NCBI GenBank assembly: GCA_022821965.1
Contig: JAJECN010000026.1
Location: 1 to 64,000, forward strand
Direction of reading: 5' to 3'
Source: Candidatus Poribacteria bacterium
Lineage (GTDB): Bacteria; Poribacteria; WGA-4E; WGA-3G
Length of the DNA: 64,000 nucleotides
How positions within the stretch are numbered: position 1 is the stretch's first letter; each line of letters starts with the position of its first letter. Positions 35,000-48,687 of this stretch are shown here, one piece after another. A program made the translations under genes and the position numbers. Below the pieces are notes generated by a model, which did no database searches, was not told the DNA's origin, and saw nothing but the letters and a program-made list of their open reading frames with translations.

Positions 35000-36745
35000 A
35001 TGGCGAATTATCAAGAATTAGCAAATCTGGTTTGGAATGTAGCAGACGATGTGCTCAGAGGACTTTTCAAACCGCACGAATACGGCGACATCACCCTCCC
35101 GTTTCTGGTGCTGCGCCGATTGGACTGCATCTTAGACGAGGACGGACGAAAAGAGAAAGCCATCAATACCTACAACGCGTTTAAGGACAAAGTGTCCGAA
35201 GAAATGCTACCGCCGATTATCCTGAGAGCGGTAAACACCAGCTTCTACAACACCTCCCAATACGACCTATCCCGACTGACAGAAGACCCAACCAACATCC
35301 GCCTCAATTTTGAGAATTACCGCAACGGATTCAGTCAAGACGTGCGCGACATCATTGAAAACTTCAATCTCGATGGATTTATTGAGCGATTGGACAGAAA
35401 CAACCGACTGTTTATCTTCTGCGATAAGTTCACCGAAATCGACTTACATCCCGATAAGGTGGATAACCACACGATGGGACAAGTCTTTGAGGAGCTGCTC
35501 CGCCGATTTTCCGAGATGTCCAACGAAACCAGTGGGGAGCACTACACGCCGCGGGATGTCGTGCGGTTACTGGTTTCGCTATTGTTTGCGGAACACCGTG
35601 AAGATCTACGCGGGCAGGGGGTTATCCGCAGCATCTTCGATCCGTGTTGTGGGACAGGCGGCATGTTGACCGTTGGGAAGGAGTACTTCCGCGAACAGAT
35701 TAATCCGAATGCTGACATTCGGCTGTTGGGTCAAGAACTGAACGCGCAGACCTACGCCATCTGCAAGTCGGATATGCTCATTACTGGCGAGGACCCGGAC
35801 AATATTCGACACGGTTCCAGTCTCTCCGAGGATCAATTTCAAGGACAACGTTTCGATTATATGATAACAAATCCACCCTTCGGTGTGAGTTGGAAGTCCG
35901 ATGAAGCGGCTGTGAAAGCGGACGCGCAGACCGCCAACGGCAGATTCTCAGCAGGTACGCCGCGCTCCTCCGATGGGGCGTTGCTGTTCCTGCAACACAT
36001 GCTCTCTAAAATGGAAGAGCGCGGGAGTCGGGTTGGAATCGTCTTTAACGGGTCGCCGCTTTTTACAGGGGATGCCGGTAGCGGTGAGAGTGAAATCCGA
36101 CGCTGGATTATCGAAAACGACTGGCTGGAGTGTATTATTGCGCTGCCTGAAAAGTTGTTCTTCAACACCAGTATTGCCACCTATATCTGGATCTTAACGA
36201 ATCGAAAATCGGAGGCACGACAGGGCAAAATACAACTGATTAACGCTGTTGACTTCCGCGACGAGATGAAAAGGAATCTCGGAGACAAGAACGTTTTCAT
36301 CTCCGATAATCATATCCGTCAAATAGTGGAACTCTACACCAACTTTGAAGAAACCGAACACGCCAAAATTTATCCAAACGACTTTTTCGGTTATACAAAA
36401 GTAACGGTTGAGAGACCGCTCATTGAAAGGCAGGAGATTCTCGGAGAGGAACAGGAATTCGTTGTCAGGGACAAGAAGGGCAATCCTAAACCCGATACCA
36501 AGCTCCGAGACTATGAGCGCGTTCCGCTCACAGAGAACATTGAAGATTACTACCAACGAGAAGTGAAACCGCACCTACCGGACAGTTGGATAGACAGGAA
36601 GAAGGATAAGGTGGGCTATGAAATCAACTTCAATCGGTATTTCTACCAGTACACACCGCTGCGTTCACTGGAGGAGATTGCAGAGGAAATGCTGGCTCTT
36701 GAACGGAAAAGTGAAGGCTTGCTGAATGAGGTGTTGGGGTTATGA
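35000..36745 (+). CDS. hsdM: type I restriction-modification DNA methyltransferase HsdM
   Basis: The 581-residue protein methylates adenine in host DNA as part of a type I complex with HsdS and HsdR. An N-terminal helical HsdM domain (to about 140) precedes the catalytic domain. That domain holds SAM motif I IFDPCCGTGGML (about 213) and catalytic NPPFG (about 290), with TSGEHYTPRDVVRLL between. GAAGGA lies just before the ATG. The last 40 nt are duplicated at 40282-40321, directly before the next gene of the locus, showing that 3.6 kb of other DNA now separates hsdM from its partners. Confidence 0.97.
   Translation: MANYQELANLVWNVADDVLRGLFKPHEYGDITLPFLVLRRLDCILDEDGRKEKAINTYNAFKDKVSEEMLPPIILRAVNTSFYNTSQYDLSRLTEDPTNIRLNFENYRNGFSQDVRDIIENFNLDGFIERLDRNNRLFIFCDKFTEIDLHPDKVDNHTMGQVFEELLRRFSEMSNETSGEHYTPRDVVRLLVSLLFAEHREDLRGQGVIRSIFDPCCGTGGMLTVGKEYFREQINPNADIRLLGQELNAQTYAICKSDMLITGEDPDNIRHGSSLSEDQFQGQRFDYMITNPPFGVSWKSDEAAVKADAQTANGRFSAGTPRSSDGALLFLQHMLSKMEERGSRVGIVFNGSPLFTGDAGSGESEIRRWIIENDWLECIIALPEKLFFNTSIATYIWILTNRKSEARQGKIQLINAVDFRDEMKRNLGDKNVFISDNHIRQIVELYTNFEETEHAKIYPNDFFGYTKVTVERPLIERQEILGEEQEFVVRDKKGNPKPDTKLRDYERVPLTENIEDYYQREVKPHLPDSWIDRKKDKVGYEINFNRYFYQYTPLRSLEEIAEEMLALERKSEGLLNEVLGL
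36706..36745 (+). repeat. 40-bp direct repeat, copy A (hsdM 3' end)
   Basis: These 40 nt end with the hsdM stop codon and match 40282-40321 at 38 of 40 positions. The two copies bound a segment of 3.6 kb inside the restriction locus. Confidence 0.85.
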
Positions 36746-38005: not shown

Positions 38006-38369
38006 GCGCAAATATCGGACAGTTTCTAAATCGGAAACCTGAATCCAGTAATAACTTGGTTTGGGTTTCCGTTTTTCATATCTGCAATGGTTGGTTGATG
38101 TGCTTGAAAAATTCTATGCGGTATTTCGTCCGCGTCTTGAAAAACTAATGATGGGGGTTTAGGTCTTAGCGTTCAGCGAGCAATTGAAACGTAAATCTTA
38201 AATAGTAGTGCTATTACGGGTGGATATAGTGGCACCAGTGCCTGCAGTGCAACATCGTATTGCCTTATTGTTTCTGTGCCATCTGGTATTGTTTTGGTGC
38301 CCGGAGGCAGAACCGGAAGCCTTAATGAGACTCGTTCAAGCGCATACGGATGATGTGGAGGTAAATAAT

Positions 38370-38861
38370 ATGATAAAATCAGCAGCAGAAACGCTTTTTG
38401 AAGAAGGCTTTGAGCAAGGCTTTGCAATAGGATTTGAGGAAGGCAGAATAATAAGCAAAACAAAAATTATTCAGCAAGACCTTACAAAAAATATTGCAAA
38501 AATTGTTGAACAGGGCATTGCAATAGGTATTGAGCAAGACATTGCAAAAGACATTGAAAAAGTTATTGAGCAAGCCAAAGCAACAATTATTCAGAAGGGC
38601 ATTGCAAAAGATATTGAAAAAGTTATTGAGCAAGCCAAAGCAGTAGATGTTGAGCAAGACATTGCAAAAGAAACTGATAAAACTATTGAACAGGGCATTG
38701 TAATGGGTATTGAGCAGGGCATTGCAAAAGTTATTGAGCAAGCCAAAGTCGAGATATATCGTGCTTGGCACGCAGATTGGGAAAAACGAAGACAGGCAGC
38801 AGCAGAAAAAGGACTCCCGTTTAACGACCCGCCGCTACCAAATCCTAATAATAACAACTGA
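38370..38861 (+). CDS. repeat-rich coiled protein resembling an Rpn C-terminal tail
   Basis: The 163-residue protein begins MIKSAAETLFEEGFEQG and continues with a 20-residue repeat of the kind GIAKDIEKVIEQAKA, strongly helical, ending in a Pro/Asn-rich tail. E-Q-G repeats like this form the C-terminal tail of Rpn/PD-(D/E)XK transposase-like nucleases. In-frame codons upstream (38208-38369) read PEALMRLVQAHTDDVEVNN, which also fits such a nuclease, so this may be the surviving 3' part of an Rpn gene. ATG 38370 has GGAGG 8 nt upstream and can be translated on its own. Confidence 0.55.
   Translation: MIKSAAETLFEEGFEQGFAIGFEEGRIISKTKIIQQDLTKNIAKIVEQGIAIGIEQDIAKDIEKVIEQAKATIIQKGIAKDIEKVIEQAKAVDVEQDIAKETDKTIEQGIVMGIEQGIAKVIEQAKVEIYRAWHADWEKRRQAAAEKGLPFNDPPLPNPNNNN
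38461..38760 (+). repeat. 60-bp tandem repeat inside the coiled protein gene
   Basis: A unit of exactly 60 nt (20 codons) recurs about five times. ATTGCAAAAGA with following ATTGAAAAAGTTATTGAGCA is strongest at 38541 and 38601 and weaker at 38481 and 38661. The reading frame is kept, so length variation between strains would stay in frame. Confidence 0.8.
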
Positions 38862-40358: not shown

Positions 40359-42878
40359 GTGAACAACATTCGGGTCGATATACGCCTTAGACCTATTCGG
40401 TTTGGATTTTTGGTTCGTCCAGATGATGCCAAAAATGTCCTTGAGATTTTTCGTATTAATACATGTTTGTGGGGTGGCATGTTCAATCCAATTATCCCTA
40501 TTTTTGACTCTGTACCATCTTGGTTGGAAGAAGAAGGTTTTCACTTTGAGAACCCAAAACAAATGATCAACGACTATCTTGATTTCTTTGAACCTGATTT
40601 CCTTGTTGAAGCAGAAGAAGAGTTAGCGGAAGGATTCGGGTTTGACCCAGAAAGGGTACGAAAACTTGCAGATATGATAGAAGAACCAAGAGGGAATTAC
40701 GTACATAGATATGGATTAAGTGTCCATGGACTCTATACGGATTTATATGCCAAGGAATATCAGTTTGAGCAACGTCACAAAGATCCTTTTGTTGATATAC
40801 AACCAGCAGATACGGCTTTTACAAATTTCGTTGCAGGTCTATTCGGCGACTTCCCAGTTCAAGAACGCCTTAGTTATTTTCAACATAACTACAAAGTCAT
40901 ATTCAATTCAATGTCGGTAGGTTTAGATGCTGCTGCCCTCGCGAAACTGTATCAATCCGGGTATAGTTCTGCCTTAGGAATAACGTGTAAAGATCTTCAG
41001 GTAGGTTATAATGCTCCTCTGTTATCCACATTATTCATATTAGATGCCCGTGAGTCAAAAGATATAGTTGATTTCTGGAATTTACGCGCAATACATCAAC
41101 ATGTTCATGCAGTTCCTATTCAATGGATTGACGACCTTTCACCTTTCTGTAAAAAGTTCATTCGGGATAATTATCGTCGTCAACCTGATGACGCAAGTGC
41201 GACAATGGTTGGTCCAGTCTTAATGTTTTCACGCTCCCTTTCTGACGGGGACATAGAAGAAATAGTGGGAAATTTCTCTTTTGTTGAGGAAGGAGATGTT
41301 TACACAATACAAAGATGGTCTCCAACTATCTGGTATAAGTTGTCGGAACAAGTTGCTAGCCCTACACGTCCGACCTTAACAGCTAATCGAAAAGTAATGA
41401 ACATACCAATTGATAGTGATAATCCTGAAGTTCGATTCGATCCTCTCTTTCCCGATTTTGTCAGTGAATACAATTTATATCGTGTAGCGAATGTTGTCAG
41501 ATTGCAAGATTGGAGCGATGAAGAGTACGTTGTCAGAGTGCGAGATAGAATAGACGACAATGATCAGATCGCCACAATTTTTCCATGCAACTATAGAAAT
41601 CCTTCTGTTCCCAAATTCCAACCTGAATTTCTGCAGGAGGATTATCTTTTGCCTACCACCGAGGGATTGATCATTTTTCCTTATAGGGAGAATTTTTCTG
41701 AATTGTGGAATTTAGTTGATGGAACCACGGCATTCAATCAATGGTTGATAGCCAACCGAGTGCGTACCATTCCTTCTGATGGAGGAAAAGCAACGGAACA
41801 GATAATTGAGACATTAGGTGGTCTTCGGGATGTTGGTTGCCTAACGCATGAAGGGGTTATTGAGTTTCTAAATAAAATGACAGGTAGATTTACTAAAGCT
41901 AGCGATTACTGTGAATTTAAGAGAAAAATTGACAATGCTGACAAGAAAGAAAGACCAAAAAATAGAACTTTTGAAACATTAATCAAACGAAAGGTGGTTG
42001 AGTTTGGGGTAAAACTTAAATGTAGCAAGTGCAGCAAATGGAGTTGGTATTCGGTAAACCAACTTGATTACTCACTAATCTGCGATTTCTGCTTTCAGCA
42101 GTTTGATTACCCTATTCTTGACCCTACAGACAAAAAACATTCCAAATGGGCTTATCGTGTTGTAGGACCGTTTGCTTTGCCTAATTACGCTGACGGAGGA
42201 TATGCAGCTGCCTTAGCCATGCGTTTCTTTGCAAATGTTATAGGTGAATTCGATCAAGCAGGAGTAACTTGGTCGTCTGGGCAAGAACTAACGTTAAACA
42301 GAAATAAAAAGGTAGAAGTTGACTTTATGTTATGGTATCAACGTCGTAAAAAGATTTATGGAACGGAGCGGTCATTTTTTACAGACGGTTTGCCCAGTTT
42401 TGGGCTAGATCGACCTACCGAAACGATGTTTGGCGAAGCCAAGAGTTTCTATAGGTTTAAACAAAAAGACATTAATAAGATGAAATTATTGGCAGAAAAG
42501 TTTCCGGGTTCTGTATTGGTATTTGCTACAATGAGAGAAAGACTTTCTCCAAGTGAAATTAACCGCATCAAAGAATTAGCAGAATGGGGACGAAAATATG
42601 ATAAGGAAAGTAGACAAACACGAGCACCGGTGATAGTACTTACAGGAACAGAATTGTTCACGTCAGGTTTTTTAAGCACTTCGTGGGAAGAGAAAGGGGG
42701 GAAACACAAGGACTTAGCAAAGCACACGTCGCTAGGCACATCTAATTTGAGAATCTTGGCGAATTTTACGCAACACCTATACTTAGATTTGGAGATGCTA
42801 CCCTATGGACCGACCATGGCTCAACGGAGAGAATCATTTGAAAGAAGAATGGATCATTTGAGAAATACTGAGGTTTAG
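40359..42878 (+). CDS. zinc-ribbon and PD-(D/E)XK-like protein within type I R-M locus
   Basis: The 839-residue protein is of unrecognised family. The N-terminus has RPIRFGFLVRP and CLWGGMFNPIIP (about residues 10-47). A four-Cys zinc ribbon (C-x2-C and C-x2-C, about 554-583) is followed by a nuclease-like region with EVDFMLWY (about 651) and FGEAKSF (about 690), fitting the D and E-x-K of a PD-(D/E)XK site. The GTG start has AGGAG upstream. hsdS follows 4 nt after the stop, and a relic hsdM end precedes it, so it is an original member of the hsd operon. It could be an extra nuclease or a specificity accessory; I infer a defence role from context and motifs only. Confidence 0.75.
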   Translation: MNNIRVDIRLRPIRFGFLVRPDDAKNVLEIFRINTCLWGGMFNPIIPIFDSVPSWLEEEGFHFENPKQMINDYLDFFEPDFLVEAEEELAEGFGFDPERVRKLADMIEEPRGNYVHRYGLSVHGLYTDLYAKEYQFEQRHKDPFVDIQPADTAFTNFVAGLFGDFPVQERLSYFQHNYKVIFNSMSVGLDAAALAKLYQSGYSSALGITCKDLQVGYNAPLLSTLFILDARESKDIVDFWNLRAIHQHVHAVPIQWIDDLSPFCKKFIRDNYRRQPDDASATMVGPVLMFSRSLSDGDIEEIVGNFSFVEEGDVYTIQRWSPTIWYKLSEQVASPTRPTLTANRKVMNIPIDSDNPEVRFDPLFPDFVSEYNLYRVANVVRLQDWSDEEYVVRVRDRIDDNDQIATIFPCNYRNPSVPKFQPEFLQEDYLLPTTEGLIIFPYRENFSELWNLVDGTTAFNQWLIANRVRTIPSDGGKATEQIIETLGGLRDVGCLTHEGVIEFLNKMTGRFTKASDYCEFKRKIDNADKKERPKNRTFETLIKRKVVEFGVKLKCSKCSKWSWYSVNQLDYSLICDFCFQQFDYPILDPTDKKHSKWAYRVVGPFALPNYADGGYAAALAMRFFANVIGEFDQAGVTWSSGQELTLNRNKKVEVDFMLWYQRRKKIYGTERSFFTDGLPSFGLDRPTETMFGEAKSFYRFKQKDINKMKLLAEKFPGSVLVFATMRERLSPSEINRIKELAEWGRKYDKESRQTRAPVIVLTGTELFTSGFLSTSWEEKGGKHKDLAKHTSLGTSNLRILANFTQHLYLDLEMLPYGPTMAQRRESFERRMDHLRNTEV

Positions 42879-42882
42879 GATT

Positions 42883-44172
42883 ATGAGAGGTTATCCTGAA
42901 TATAAAGACAGCGGCGTGGAGTGGATTGGGGAGATACCAGCGCATTGGAAAATCGAAAAAATAAAGCATATTGCAACTCTTGTAAGTGAAAAATCCACTC
43001 CTAAGACAGGCACCATAAAAATTTCACCTGAAAATGTTGAATCGAAAACTGGCAAAGTCCTTGATTTTTACAGCTCCTATGATTCAAGCGGTGTGAAATT
43101 TCAAATTGGAGATGTGCTATTCAACAAAATTCGTGTCTATCTAAACAAAGTGGTCTTTGCAGAATATGATGGTTACTCTCTCGGTGAAATGATAGTTATG
43201 AGACCGTCTCTACAAGGTATGGGTAAATACCTTTTCTATTTCATGTTATCCAGTCGTTTTATTGAATACTGCGATTCCATATCTTACGGAGCGAAGATGC
43301 CACGCACGGCCGTCGATGATATTCTGAATGCACAAATTCCTATTACCTCAGATAAGGAACAACGTCAAATCGCCAACTTCCTTGACCGCAAGACCAAACA
43401 GATTGACGAACTCATCCACATCAAAGAACGACGCATCGAACTGCTGCAGGAACAACGCACCGCACTGATAAATCAGGCAGTGACGAAGGGAGTTGACCCG
43501 AATGTGGAGATGAAACCGTCGGGAATGGAATGGATTGGAAATATCCCAAGACACTGGGAAAGAATAAAGTTGAGATATTTGGGTGTATTACAAAATGGAA
43601 TTAGTAAGGATTCTGATTCATTCGGTTTGGGATACCCTTTTCTCAGCTATGGTGATGTGTATAATAATTACACTTTACCCACACAAGTGGAAGGATTGGT
43701 TAAATCAACGGAAACTGATAGAGAAAGATATTCCGTGCTAGAAGGAGATGTATTTTTTACCAGAACGTCAGAGACAATCGAAGATATTGGAATATCATCT
43801 ACTTGTATGCAAACGATAGAGAATTGTGTCTTTTCTGGATTCTTAATAAGGTTTAGGAATACTTCCAAGGTATTAACAAAAGAATTTTCCAAATACTATT
43901 TTCTTTCTCACTTACCAAGAATATTTTTAGCTAGGGAAGTGAACATAGTTACTCGTTCTTCATTGAGTCAAGAGTTATTAAAAAGGCTACCAGTCCTACT
44001 TCCATCTATAGATGAACAAGAAGAAATCGCTATATTTCTTGATGAGCAAACGCAAAAAATTGACTTTATGATTGAAAAAGAAAATAGACAAATCCAACTC
44101 CTGAAAGAATACCGTCAATCCCTCATCTCCGAGGCGGTGACAGGCAAAATCGATGTCCGAAACGAGGTTTAG
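42883..44172 (+). CDS. hsdS: type I restriction specificity subunit HsdS
   Basis: The 429-residue protein sets the DNA target of the complex. It has two target-recognition domains, each opened by the conserved phrase (VEWIGEIPAHWK at about 11 and MEWIGNIPRHWE at about 213). Two helical spacer regions contain FLDRKTKQIDELI and FLDEQTQKIDFMI. Such half-repeats recognise a bipartite asymmetric site. It lies 4 nt behind the 839-residue gene. Confidence 0.95.
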   Translation: MRGYPEYKDSGVEWIGEIPAHWKIEKIKHIATLVSEKSTPKTGTIKISPENVESKTGKVLDFYSSYDSSGVKFQIGDVLFNKIRVYLNKVVFAEYDGYSLGEMIVMRPSLQGMGKYLFYFMLSSRFIEYCDSISYGAKMPRTAVDDILNAQIPITSDKEQRQIANFLDRKTKQIDELIHIKERRIELLQEQRTALINQAVTKGVDPNVEMKPSGMEWIGNIPRHWERIKLRYLGVLQNGISKDSDSFGLGYPFLSYGDVYNNYTLPTQVEGLVKSTETDRERYSVLEGDVFFTRTSETIEDIGISSTCMQTIENCVFSGFLIRFRNTSKVLTKEFSKYYFLSHLPRIFLAREVNIVTRSSLSQELLKRLPVLLPSIDEQEEIAIFLDEQTQKIDFMIEKENRQIQLLKEYRQSLISEAVTGKIDVRNEV

Positions 44173-44288: not shown

Positions 44289-45347
44289 ATGCGCGAAACA
44301 CAGGATACGCAGATAGAACACTTCCCCGACCGGAGCCTCAGACGTCTGCTTCAAGACTGGGAATATGTACGGGGGTTAGTCCAAATTATCGCACCGGACA
44401 TCGAGGCGTTTCTCGACTTCAGCCGGATTACATACCAGAAAAGAAGTTTTATCTCTAAAGCACTGCAAGAACGCGAGTCAGATGTGCTACTGAGTGTCCC
44501 GTTTCAAGAAGACGCAGATGCCACAGATACCGATGCGCTGCTCATCTATATCCTCATTGAACATCAATCTACAGTGGATAAAACGATGGGCTTTCGGTTA
44601 TTGTCTTACATGGTGCAAATCTGGGAGACACAACGGCGGGAGTGGGAAACGGAGAAGCTTCCTGAAAATGAGAGACGTTTACAGCCGATTCTGCCGATCC
44701 TGCTTTATACGGGCGACCGTCCGTGGACAGTGCCGGTGTCCCTGACGACAATTATGGATGTGCCTGAAATCTTGGAGCGTTTCGTACCGAGTTTCGACAC
44801 ACTGTTTTTAGGGGTCAAGGAGACTGAGGCAGAGGCTCTGACGCAATCCGGACATCCGTTGGGCTGGTTGTTGCGTGTGCTTCAAAAGGAGCATTCGGAC
44901 GAGACAGAGATAAGCGAAGCACTAACAGATGCTGTATCACATTTAGCGTCCGTAGATGAAAACTTTGCACCGCAAATTGCAGAGGCACTCCGGTATTTTG
45001 TGCAGTTGATATTCCACCGGCGTTCTCTTGAGGAGCGCGATGCGTTAGTAGATATTATCAGGCAACACATTCAAGACCATAAGGAGTTAGACACAATGGC
45101 ACAGACAACAGCCGAATTTCTCAGAGAACAAGGCAAAGCAGAAGGTAAAGTAGAAGGCAAAGCGGAAGGTAAACAGGACGCGGTGCTCAAACTCTTGCAG
45201 CTCCGATTTCAGAACGTGCCAGAAGTGCTTTCCCGCAAAATCAGCAATATCCACAACTTGTCGCGCCTTGATATACTCTTAGAGCAAGCGATGACCGCGC
45301 AAAGTTTAGACGAAATAGATACGCATTTCTTCTCAAACTCTTCTTGA
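44289..45347 (+). CDS. Rpn-family PD-(D/E)XK nuclease
   Basis: The 352-residue protein belongs to the recombination-promoting nuclease/putative transposase (Rpn, YhgA-like) family, DNA nucleases with reported phage-defence activity. The N-terminal half has ESDVLLSVPFQE and LLIYILIEHQST, the D and E-x-Q form of the active site, and LPILLYTGDRPW. The C-terminal part is a G-K-x-E-G linker and a helical domain (VLKLLQLRFQNVPE ... AMTAQSLDEI). It lies between hsdS and hsdR with its own promoter. An internal start at 45096 encodes the C-terminal module alone. Confidence 0.85.
   Translation: MRETQDTQIEHFPDRSLRRLLQDWEYVRGLVQIIAPDIEAFLDFSRITYQKRSFISKALQERESDVLLSVPFQEDADATDTDALLIYILIEHQSTVDKTMGFRLLSYMVQIWETQRREWETEKLPENERRLQPILPILLYTGDRPWTVPVSLTTIMDVPEILERFVPSFDTLFLGVKETEAEALTQSGHPLGWLLRVLQKEHSDETEISEALTDAVSHLASVDENFAPQIAEALRYFVQLIFHRRSLEERDALVDIIRQHIQDHKELDTMAQTTAEFLREQGKAEGKVEGKAEGKQDAVLKLLQLRFQNVPEVLSRKISNIHNLSRLDILLEQAMTAQSLDEIDTHFFSNSS
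45096..45347 (+). CDS. internal in-frame start: Rpn C-terminal small protein
   Basis: Within the Rpn gene, AAGGAG (45081-45086) stands 9 nt before an in-frame ATG. Translation from it would give 83 residues starting MAQTTAEFL, the linker plus helical domain without the nuclease. E. coli rpn genes are known to make such short intragenic products, which block the long form. The same Shine-Dalgarno, spacing and start are preserved in the downstream duplicate, which supports real use. Confidence 0.55.
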   Translation: MAQTTAEFLREQGKAEGKVEGKAEGKQDAVLKLLQLRFQNVPEVLSRKISNIHNLSRLDILLEQAMTAQSLDEIDTHFFSNSS

Positions 45348-45373
45348 AACGATTGATAAAGGAGTTAGAGGCG

Positions 45374-45613
45374 ATGGCACAGACAACGGCTGAGTTTCTC
45401 ATAGAACAAGGCAAAGTAGAAGGCAGGGTGGAAGGCAAACAGGACGCGGTGCTCAAACTCTTGCAGCTCCGATTTCAAAACGTGCCAGAAGTGCTTTCCC
45501 GCGAGATCAGTAATATCCACAACTTATCGCGCCTTGATACGCTCTTAGAGCAAGCGATGACCGCGCAAAGTTTAGATGAAATAGATACCCATTTCCTCTT
45601 AAACTCTCCATGA
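45374..45613 (+). CDS. stand-alone Rpn C-terminal module (possible antitoxin)
   Basis: The 79-residue protein begins MAQTTAEFLIEQGK and repeats the C-terminal module of the Rpn gene before it, with four fewer linker residues and a few substitutions. AAGGAG lies 9 nt before the ATG exactly as in the internal start of the parent. It lacks any nuclease residues. By analogy with short Rpn products it may inhibit the full-length nuclease; this is inference. hsdR begins shortly after. Confidence 0.65.
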   Translation: MAQTTAEFLIEQGKVEGRVEGKQDAVLKLLQLRFQNVPEVLSREISNIHNLSRLDTLLEQAMTAQSLDEIDTHFLLNSP

Positions 45614-45696
45614 AATGATTGATAGTTGACGATTCGGAGTTAAGTGATCCGCGTGGTCCAAGAACAACCCGTATCTATTTCACGAGGTGTAGAGTC

Positions 45697-48687
45697 GTGC
45701 AGACGTATACAGAACAGAATTTTGAGGACCACATCGAAGAACACCTGAATCAGTCGGGCTACCGGTCATTACAATCTTCCCATTATAATAAATCCCGCTG
45801 CCTGATATCCAATGAGACACTACGGTTTATTCAGATGACGCAACTGCCGGAGTATCAGAAATTGGAACGCCAGTACGACGCGGATACACCAGATAAACTC
45901 CTTGATCGTGTGAGCAGAGAGATTAAAAATCGCGGGGTATTGGACGTGCTTCGGAAAGGCGTTAGGGATAGAGGTTGTCATTTTAAACTGACCTACTTCC
46001 TGCCATCAAGTGGCATGAACCCCGATCACCAGCAGCTCTATGCACAGAACCGATTCTCCCTCATCCGACAGTTAAAGTATTCAGAGAAGAACGAGAAATC
46101 GCTCGATATGACCTTGTTTCTCAACGGGTTGCCATTGGTGACAATGGAACTGAAAAACAGCCTCACGGGTCAGGTGGTAACGGATGCTGAAAAACAGTAT
46201 AGGACAAGTCGGGATTCGAGGGAGCCGTTGTTCCAATTCAAGCGGTCTCTGGTGCACTTTGCGGTGGGCAATGAGAAGGTTTCCATGACAACGCACTTGC
46301 AGCGTGGCAAGACACGTTTCTTTCCGTTCAACAAGGGTATTGAAAACCCCGTAAATCCAGAAGGGCACAAAACCGCCTATCTTTGGGAGGACATCCTACA
46401 GCCCGATAACCTGATGGCGTTAATCAACAACTTTATCCATGAGCAGGAGACCACAGAGAAGGTCTACGATCCCAAAACTAAGATGGTGAAAGATGAGAAG
46501 CACCGCGTGCTCATTTTCCCGCGATACCATCAATTGGATGTGATTCATGAATTGAAAACGACTATTGTGGAGGAAGGGGTTGGGCATAACTACCTTATCC
46601 AACACACCACAGGGAGCGGAAAATCGAACTCCATCGCGTGGTTGGCACACCTGCTAACGCATCTGTACCGCTCTCCGAAGGATACCAATCGAATTTTCGA
46701 CTCCATCATCGTTGTGACGGATCGGCGCGTGCTTGACAAGCAGCTGCAGGACACAATCAAACAGGTGGAACAGGTTGACGGTGTGGTGCATGCCGTTGAT
46801 CAAACCTCAGCACAACTCAGAGGTTTCTTCGAATCCGGCAAAGACATCATCATCTCAACGATTCAGAAGTTCAGCATGATTGCTAAGGAAATTGGCAAAC
46901 TCAAAAGTAAGACCTTCGCCGTGATTATTGACGAAGCGCACTCCTCGCAGAGCGGTGAATCGGCGAGAAATCTCAGAACTTCGCTCTCGAAGGGGATTGA
47001 GGATGGAGTAGGCGAAGATTATGCCGACGAGGTATCCGATATAGACGCTCGGATTATTGCGGAGATAGAACAACGCAGAATGCAGGATCATATCTCCTAT
47101 TTCGGTTTCAGCGGCACCCCGAAAAACAAGACATTAGAACTCTTTGGACGGAAGGACGAAGACGGGAAATTTATCCCCTTCCATGTCTATTCGATGCGCC
47201 AGAGTATCAGTGAAGGCTTTACACTGGACGTACTGCAGAACTACACCACCTTTAAGAGGTACTTCCAACTGGTTAAAAGTGTGCCAGAGGATAGAGAGTA
47301 CGAGAAGGCGCGGACGCTCCGAGCATTGACCAATTACGTTGACCAGCAACCCCACAGCATTGAGACGAAGACCAAGATTATGCTGGAACACTTCATCGAA
47401 CACACTGCAAAGACGATCGAAGGGAAGGGGCGGGCGATGTTGGTTACGCCGTCCCGATTGCACTGCGTCAGATACAAGCAGGCGTTTGATCGGCAGATGA
47501 AGGAAATGGGACTTCCCTACGGGTGTTTGGTAGCGTTCAGCGACACAGTGCACGACACCGATAACGGGCAGGACTACACAGAAAACGGGATGAATGCGTT
47601 GCCACCAAGCACTTCCATTGCGGACAGTTTCAAGAGTCCTGAGTACCGAATTCTAATTGTCGCGAGCAAGTTCCAAACGGGTTTCGATGAACCGCTGCTA
47701 CAGACGATGTACGTTGATAAGCGATTGGACGGGCTGCAATGTGTCCAGACCCTGAGTCGTCTGAACCGCGTCACCACCGGTAAAACGGACACACTCGTGC
47801 TTGACTTTGTGAATGAACCGGAGCAGATACAGGAAGCTTTTCAGGAGTACTATCAGACCACGATGCTCGCGGAGGAGACTGACCCGAATCGGCTGTATGA
47901 CCTACAGAGCCAGTTGGAGGATTTTGATCTCTATGATGAAGGGACCATTAATCAATTCTGTTTTATCTTTTATGACTCTGAACAACCTGACGAACTTCTA
48001 CAAGGCGTTCTTGATGGTGTTGTTGAGCGGTGGGCAGATCTTGAAACAGATGACAAGGAGAAGTTTCGTTCTACTTTACAAAGTTATATTCGGCTCTATG
48101 GGTACATCTCACAGTTGATAACCTTCACCGATGTGGCGTTGGAAAAGTTGTATATCTTCGGTCGCAGTCTCAACAAGAAGCTGCCGAAACGGGATCACCC
48201 CGACTTACAAGATGTTTTGGCATCTGTGGACTTGGATTCGTTTCGTGTACAGAGAACCCATGAGGAGCTACAACTCTCCCTTGCAGAAAAAGATAGCGAG
48301 GTCGAAGGGTTTGGCAGCGATGTCGCTATCCGCAGGGACCCTGAGCAGGATTTCCTCTCCAATATCCTTGATGCCCTGAACAGTGCCCATCACATAGATT
48401 TCACACCGGAAGATAAGGTTGATATTGAGACCATTCACCGAAAGGTGCACGAAAACGAAGAACTGCGACAGGTAATCAACGGAGATAATTCAGAAACTAA
48501 CAAAAGACGTAAGTTTGATGATGTAATTGATGACATTCTATTGAGTTTCGTCAATAGCAAACTCGAGCTCTACACGAAATTATCACAACCGGAGATCAAG
48601 GCAGATCTCACGCGTCAACTCTATCAAGCCTATCGTGAGCAACCGTCCGCTTCTGTAGAATCGACCTCCCAGTCGCGATCTTCCTAA
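45697..48687 (+). CDS. hsdR: type I restriction endonuclease subunit HsdR
   Basis: The 996-residue motor subunit translocates and cuts unmethylated DNA. The N-terminal nuclease has SLDMTLFLNGLPLVTMELKN (D and E-x-K, about 133-153). The helicase has Walker A HTTGSGKSNS (about 302), VIIDEAHSSQ (about 410) and FGFSGTPKN; a helical HsdM/HsdS-binding region ends the protein. I chose GTG 45697 because GAGGTG lies 6-7 nt upstream and the protein then begins VQTYTEQNFEDHIEEHL, as in relatives; a TTG at 45619 would add 26 atypical residues. Confidence 0.95.
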   Translation: MQTYTEQNFEDHIEEHLNQSGYRSLQSSHYNKSRCLISNETLRFIQMTQLPEYQKLERQYDADTPDKLLDRVSREIKNRGVLDVLRKGVRDRGCHFKLTYFLPSSGMNPDHQQLYAQNRFSLIRQLKYSEKNEKSLDMTLFLNGLPLVTMELKNSLTGQVVTDAEKQYRTSRDSREPLFQFKRSLVHFAVGNEKVSMTTHLQRGKTRFFPFNKGIENPVNPEGHKTAYLWEDILQPDNLMALINNFIHEQETTEKVYDPKTKMVKDEKHRVLIFPRYHQLDVIHELKTTIVEEGVGHNYLIQHTTGSGKSNSIAWLAHLLTHLYRSPKDTNRIFDSIIVVTDRRVLDKQLQDTIKQVEQVDGVVHAVDQTSAQLRGFFESGKDIIISTIQKFSMIAKEIGKLKSKTFAVIIDEAHSSQSGESARNLRTSLSKGIEDGVGEDYADEVSDIDARIIAEIEQRRMQDHISYFGFSGTPKNKTLELFGRKDEDGKFIPFHVYSMRQSISEGFTLDVLQNYTTFKRYFQLVKSVPEDREYEKARTLRALTNYVDQQPHSIETKTKIMLEHFIEHTAKTIEGKGRAMLVTPSRLHCVRYKQAFDRQMKEMGLPYGCLVAFSDTVHDTDNGQDYTENGMNALPPSTSIADSFKSPEYRILIVASKFQTGFDEPLLQTMYVDKRLDGLQCVQTLSRLNRVTTGKTDTLVLDFVNEPEQIQEAFQEYYQTTMLAEETDPNRLYDLQSQLEDFDLYDEGTINQFCFIFYDSEQPDELLQGVLDGVVERWADLETDDKEKFRSTLQSYIRLYGYISQLITFTDVALEKLYIFGRSLNKKLPKRDHPDLQDVLASVDLDSFRVQRTHEELQLSLAEKDSEVEGFGSDVAIRRDPEQDFLSNILDALNSAHHIDFTPEDKVDIETIHRKVHENEELRQVINGDNSETNKRRKFDDVIDDILLSFVNSKLELYTKLSQPEIKADLTRQLYQAYREQPSASVESTSQSRSS

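Follow-up and report, generated by a model that had tools for sequence, protein, structure and literature searches.

A type I restriction operon of Candidatus Poribacteria carries an Rpn nuclease gene with an internal start signal and a free-standing copy of its tail that differs in repeat number

Results

The rpn locus and its type I restriction operon

The 64,000-nucleotide stretch of Candidatus Poribacteria DNA analysed here (contig JAJECN010000026.1, positions 1 to 64,000; hereafter the window) contains a type I restriction gene cluster in which the genes for the methyltransferase, hsdM (35000..36745, + strand; PF02384, 220 bits; PADLOC MTase_I), the specificity subunit, hsdS (42883..44172, +; PF01420; PADLOC Specificity_I, E = 3e-114), and the restriction subunit, hsdR (45619..48687, +; PF04313/PF18766; PADLOC REase_I), are recognizable; the true start of hsdR is probably the GTG at 45697, the position at which its relatives have an ATG. 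Between hsdS and hsdR lies an rpn gene (44289..45347, +) whose 352-amino-acid, RpnL-like product consists of a PD-(D/E)XK nuclease domain (PF04754, residues 14-221) and a C-terminal tail. Within rpn the codons AAG GAG (45081..45086, +) form a Shine-Dalgarno sequence, AAGGAG, and at a spacing of 9 nt an in-frame ATG at 45096 opens an intragenic short, RpnS-like reading frame of 83 amino acids (45096..45347, +) that has, by sequence comparison and repeat count, three four-residue repeats. The corresponding three 12-bp repeats (45135..45170, +), which encode KAEG KVEG KAEG, were identified by TRF, repeat counting and a helix model, and they lie in the first helix of the long form's tail.

A second AAGGAG (45359..45364, +) starts 12 nt past the rpn stop codon and is again spaced 9 nt from an ATG, at 45374, which is 26 nt after that stop. 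From this ATG runs a free-standing, RpnS-like tail gene of 79 amino acids (45374..45613, +) with two four-residue repeats and a weak DUF4351 match; a TTG at 45344, which overlaps the rpn stop, is an alternative start that would give a free tail of 89 amino acids. The internal and free copies are about 90% identical (94% when the core of the free tail is compared with the nuclease tail of the window), and the similarity begins exactly at the Shine-Dalgarno sequence and not upstream of it; TRF describes the tandem copies as having a period of 266, 1.8 copies and a 91% match. These positions bear out the original prediction insofar as it placed a Shine-Dalgarno sequence and an in-frame ATG 9 nt apart inside rpn, and the same sequence, spacing and ATG in a tandem copy. 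It also described that copy as the C-terminal 79 residues alone, which fits the free product and not the internal one, which is 83 amino acids long because the free copy is short by one 12-bp (four-amino-acid) repeat. Scans for promoters and terminators around the locus gave no signal above that of shuffled sequences.

The hsdS-rpn-(tail)-hsdR order recurs within the clade to which this gene belongs, whose named relatives are Candidatus Poribacteria. Most close-clade members (about 78% identity and above) adjoin type I restriction genes, with exceptions that include loci L109 and L116, and among the more distant sampled Rpn loci none was found beside type I genes save for one weak hsdM match, in searches whose queries were the Hsd proteins of the window, which distant Hsd proteins may escape. 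The cluster in the window also contains a 217-amino-acid reading frame (38208-38861, +) that resembles the 3' part of another Rpn gene, with a helical linker, a hinge Met and a very long repeat tail, and whose first 80 amino acids match three Rpn proteins of this genome. Directly upstream of hsdS, positions 40359-42878 (+) encode an 839-amino-acid protein without a Pfam or PADLOC match, a homologue of which (58% identity) adjoins hsdS in another genome (locus L063).

Family membership and predicted structure

The rpn product matches PF04754 (YhgA-like) at 104.2 bits, with a cut-off of 21, and NCBIfam TIGR01784 at 42.9 bits, which is below that model's cut-off of 52.1. Residues D14, D65, E91 and Q93 are invariant in an alignment of ten relatives (51-93% identity). 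The catalytic residues D63, E82 and Q84 of RpnA are known from mutants (PMC5350276), and D65, E91 and Q93 are their expected equivalents, as assigned by motif. The free tail of the window reaches 21.9 bits against DUF4351 (PF14261; cut-off 25), and the tails of 30 of 37 relatives match this domain at E <= 0.01, the best of them at 2e-8.

In its predicted structure (pLDDT 81) the 79-amino-acid protein has helices at residues 5-34, 39-46 and 51-63, with the repeats in the long first helix; RpnA-S is described as having a long repeat-bearing first helix and two shorter ones, an arrangement that here comes from the model. Fold searches with the tail model (Foldseek and VIA-align) returned generic helical matches only, with the RpnA-S structure (PDB 7TH0) unlisted, and a sequence search of solved structures gave no relative of either the tail or the nuclease. 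For the full-length protein AlphaFold gave only a poor model (pLDDT 59), which was left out of the analysis. Relatives have between 1 and 13 repeats, which begin about 13 residues after the internal Met; published Rpn proteins have a variable number of four-residue units in the first helix, 8-20 residues past the internal start (PMC10327210).

Conservation of the internal start

Of 76 poribacterial Rpn genes, 65 have a Shine-Dalgarno sequence ahead of the ATG at the nuclease/tail hinge, as against 21 of the 408 (5%) other internal Met codons in these genes, where the count scored a Shine-Dalgarno four-mer 5-13 nt upstream of the ATG and where, the 76 genes being related, 65/76 is not a tally of independent events. 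The remaining 11 either are parsing misses at the wrong Met or come from a subfamily in which the gap is longer (GGAGG...ATTATTATG). The internal Shine-Dalgarno sequence is kept in all close relatives and has the form GGAGGT/GAGG in distant ones, and a hinge motif is still present at about 40-50% protein identity. A chance match to the Shine-Dalgarno sequence is ruled out by the difference between hinge and other Met codons, and on this comparative evidence the internal start of rpn is real. At the hinges of L168, L172, L177, L180, L182 and L183 a GGAGGT stands about 14 nt before the ATG and an ATT ATT ATG run is present, both of which may hint at a different start position in that subfamily.

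Free-standing tails in relatives

A survey of relatives for tandem Rpn tails found tail-only copies beside rpn in many of them. In nine loci of the clade the nuclease gene is followed by a free tail (the nuclease of L054 being frameshifted), and their junctions are of at least four types, one common to the window and five other loci and three that occur once, in L054, in L075 and in L074. The free tail of L074 comes after a remnant of the nuclease 3' end, and the nuclease of that locus has gained a different tail. A downstream tail is present in 16 of 80 named poribacterial loci, which belong to several subfamilies and some of which have two, and in the wider family 49 of the 150 tail matches listed lie in frames of at most 140 amino acids, a few of which contig ends may explain. 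Nearly all free tails of the clade are intact reading frames that have kept a Shine-Dalgarno-like site and an ATG. At six loci (L053, L058, L059, L060, L061 and L063) a tail-only gene, without a nuclease domain, lies between hsdS and hsdR.

A tree of the tails intermixes free and long forms, and the free tails are not one clade. A single ancestral duplication, in its simple form, is ruled out by this topology together with the four junction types, and an assembly artefact is ruled out by the occurrence of the same arrangement in independent assemblies, single-contig genomes included, with several junction types. As judged from these comparisons, the free tails arose repeatedly.

Several loci show further variations. 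In L160 (6784-7950) the nuclease is followed by two free tails that are one and five repeats longer than the nuclease's own tail, and in L054 (7788-9176) rpn is split by the frameshift while the internal short reading frame and the free tail are both still open. The genome from which the window comes has a second tandem tail on contig 17 (L010 1447-1728, L013 808-1725), beside a distantly related Rpn that matches TIGR01784 at 26 bits and has no Pfam match; in this free copy a GTG is preceded by GGAGG, and the copy seems to be shorter by one repeat. A lone tail-like reading frame on contig 61 of the same genome (L007 1429-1740) had no nuclease domain that we could find beside it.

Selection on the free tails

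The dN/dS between long and free tails, pooled over eight loci, is 0.158 (bootstrap 0.10-0.24), and by class it is 0.11-0.17 for orphan tails, 0.12-0.13 for tandem free tails and 0.18-0.21 for long tails. With a long copy constrained at 0.2 and a free copy evolving neutrally, a value of about 0.6 would be expected, and the free copies are apparently under purifying selection. Some of their synonymous differences may have arisen while they were still part of the long gene, and constraint could also be mimicked by gene conversion.

Repeat numbers of the nuclease and free tails

The numbers of four-residue repeats in the nuclease and in its free tail are unequal in all nine clade pairs: the nuclease/free values are 3/2 in the window, 4/2 in L054, 3/1 in L065, 2/5 in L070, 1/2 in L071, 1/2 in L073, 6/1 in L074, 6/5 in L075 and 6/1 in L078. 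They are also unequal in every other poribacterial pair open to parsing, which leaves out L127 and L133; a few of the parses are off by one or made from the wrong start, and the alignments and lengths are the reliable source. In L132 the last 150 nt are identical in the two copies, yet the free copy has two more repeats. The E. coli rpnE-ypaA pair is unequal in 12 of 12 distinct haplotypes, and that of K-12, in which RpnE is annotated as inactive, is 0/1. Among these E. coli loci (L087-L096, L184-L192) the difference often amounts to exactly four repeats, with the free copy the shorter one while the absolute numbers change from locus to locus (5/1, 6/2, 8/4), a recurrent offset that could reflect linked repeat changes.

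Zhong et al. 2023 (PMC10327210) report that RpnC is no longer inhibited when one repeat is added to either the protein or its short form, and that inhibition returns when both are lengthened. Taken with this one-repeat specificity, the unequal repeat numbers make it unlikely that the free tail is a matched inhibitor of its neighbour, with the proviso that the specificity was shown for RpnC only and that tails of another family may be tolerant of a difference. Under random pairing (permutation), a complete lack of matches has a probability of 0.26 in the clade and of 0.53 in E. coli, and this test gave no support for significant selection for mismatch. Long genes of different genomes with 70-97% core identity agree in repeat number only 12-19% of the time. 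Since the absence of matching is within the level given by random pairing, fast neutral repeat slippage would look alike. It is clear from the pairs compared, nonetheless, that length matching is not maintained between the free tail and the neighbouring nuclease. No free tail was found to match another nuclease of the same clade in its own genome in the cases compared.

Discussion

Intragenic RpnS inhibits RpnL in E. coli (Zhong et al. 2023, PMC10327210), in agreement with the original prediction's account of short intragenic Rpn products as inhibitors of the full nuclease. Free downstream RpnS copies in E. coli (rpnE-ypaA, rpnC-rpnCS) originated by duplication from the neighbouring gene, and the YpaA/RpnES protein is made (PMC10327210). 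The poribacterial locus is like RpnE/ypaA (rpnE-S) and RpnC/rpnC-S in its long nuclease with an internal start and its free tail copy downstream (PMC10327210), like rpnE-ypaA in that the free copy lies right behind the stop with the Shine-Dalgarno sequence and ATG copied along, and like RpnE and RpnC in having four-residue repeats in the first helix, the long and free numbers of rpnE being unequal too. It differs from them in that the E. coli copies lie outside restriction operons and have a different and shorter C-terminal part; moreover, the poribacterial genes belong to another phylum, and some of their loci keep only the tail. The intragenic RpnS, its antitoxin role, the four-residue repeats and the origin of free downstream copies by duplication are thus already published, and what is new here is the repeated origin of free tails, their apparent constraint and the unequal repeat numbers in clean pairs. 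In the literature searched we found no report of an Rpn gene between hsdS and hsdR, of tail-only replacements there or of unequal repeat numbers.

It had also been proposed from the sequence of the window that the short product had become a separate gene, in a possible step from an intragenic to a free-standing antitoxin. A separate gene is indeed present, as a duplicate with its own translation signals and under apparent purifying selection, but rpn has given nothing up, since its intragenic site is preserved both in the window and in almost every relative, and in the clean pairs examined the repeat numbers are never equal. The proposed step is not upheld by these observations, and at the sequence level the free tail looks more like an added, differently tuned copy.

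What such a copy might do can be read in several ways. One is that it supplies an extra dose of antitoxin for its neighbour, raising the RpnS:RpnL ratio and tolerating a difference of one repeat; the shared operon position, the 26-nt gap, the 94% identical core, the constrained evolution of the free copies and the production of YpaA/RpnES protein in E. coli (PMC10327210) all argue for this. We nevertheless consider it rather unlikely, given that the repeat number is unequal in every clean pair, with the difference rising to at least five repeats in several, that a single repeat sufficed to abolish inhibition in E. coli RpnC, and that tails persist at loci without any nuclease. Free tails might instead be transient products of unequal recombination, generated at a 3' end rich in repeats and without function, as recurrent independent duplication, fast repeat slippage, the intermixing of free and long tails in the tree and the broken appearance of some copies (the second copy of L132, L127) would suggest; however, a long-versus-free dN/dS of about 0.16 where about 0.6 is expected of a neutral free copy, the intact reading frames with start signals in nearly all clade cases and the 49 of 150 listed tail matches that lie in short frames make that explanation improbable.

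The setting of the locus raises a further possibility, for which prrC is the model, with its gene order hsdS-prrC-hsdR. EcoprrI, a type IC locus, has PrrC embedded within it, and PrrC senses when this locus is inhibited (PMC12707154); the rpn locus is like EcoprrI in that a toxic nuclease gene is embedded in a type I restriction operon. By this precedent the tail would be a regulatory partner of the type I complex, for instance by pairing with nuclease and Hsd subunits alike, and the nuclease would be released once restriction is inhibited. The location of the clade between hsdS and hsdR, where no other sampled Rpn subfamily was found, and the tail-only genes that hold the same slot are consistent with such a role. 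On the other side, free tails also occur beside Rpn genes unlinked to restriction genes, no sequence link between the tail and Hsd proteins was found, and PrrC, whose substrate is tRNA, is held by the restriction enzyme, whereas Rpn would be a DNase held by its own tail; we think a partnership of this kind has only a small chance of being correct.

We tentatively favour, at a confidence close to even, an Rpn toxin-antitoxin locus with an intragenic antitoxin and a second RpnS of another length specificity that is kept as protection. In such a locus the long gene would encode a toxic DNA endonuclease inside the type I restriction operon, and its internal ribosome-binding site would give rise to a separate small C-terminal tail protein that, being matched in length to the nuclease, would pair with the nuclease tail and hold the nuclease off, as has been shown for E. 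coli Rpn. The downstream duplicated tail cassette, with its own Shine-Dalgarno sequence, would direct synthesis of a second small protein of the same family, whose repeat helix differs in length from that of the resident nuclease and which is most likely not its matched antitoxin. This second RpnS may guard against Rpn nucleases of other repeat lengths, be they variants, paralogues or incoming copies, and can be likened to the orphan immunity genes of polymorphic toxin systems. We infer its expression, inhibitory activity, specificity and protective role.

Rpn genes are frequent on plasmids (2795 records) and also occur in a few phage records, and foreign Rpn therefore exists; a phage search with the free tail alone gave no match. 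Staphylococcus aureus offers an analogue in its strings of esaG, an immunity gene present in tandem copies that are not identical (PMC9484751), and as with esaG and orphan immunity genes some of the inhibitor copies described here are without a cognate toxin and have been reshaped by recombination. The toxins that those genes guard against are secreted, whereas Rpn is not known to be, and a foreign Rpn toxin would have to come by gene transfer.

A broader proposal, which we regard as doubtful, is that bacteria carry length-coded sets of free RpnS proteins in which each repeat number is one specificity and in which tandem or orphan copies owe their retention to their difference from the resident nuclease, as a set of immunities to Rpn nucleases of other lengths. 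If this is true, and free copies inhibit nucleases of other lengths only, bacterial chromosomes would hold an immunity repertoire whose specificity is set by length. Free RpnS copies could otherwise be read as spare antitoxins of their neighbours; the consistent difference in length and the published one-repeat specificity, taken in combination, mean that another role can be tested directly in ordinary E. coli, where RpnE/YpaA of K-12 is 0/1. The hsdS-rpn-hsdR arrangement would in addition provide a parallel to PrrC, with a DNase in its place, in which to study how a restriction operon holds a toxic nuclease.
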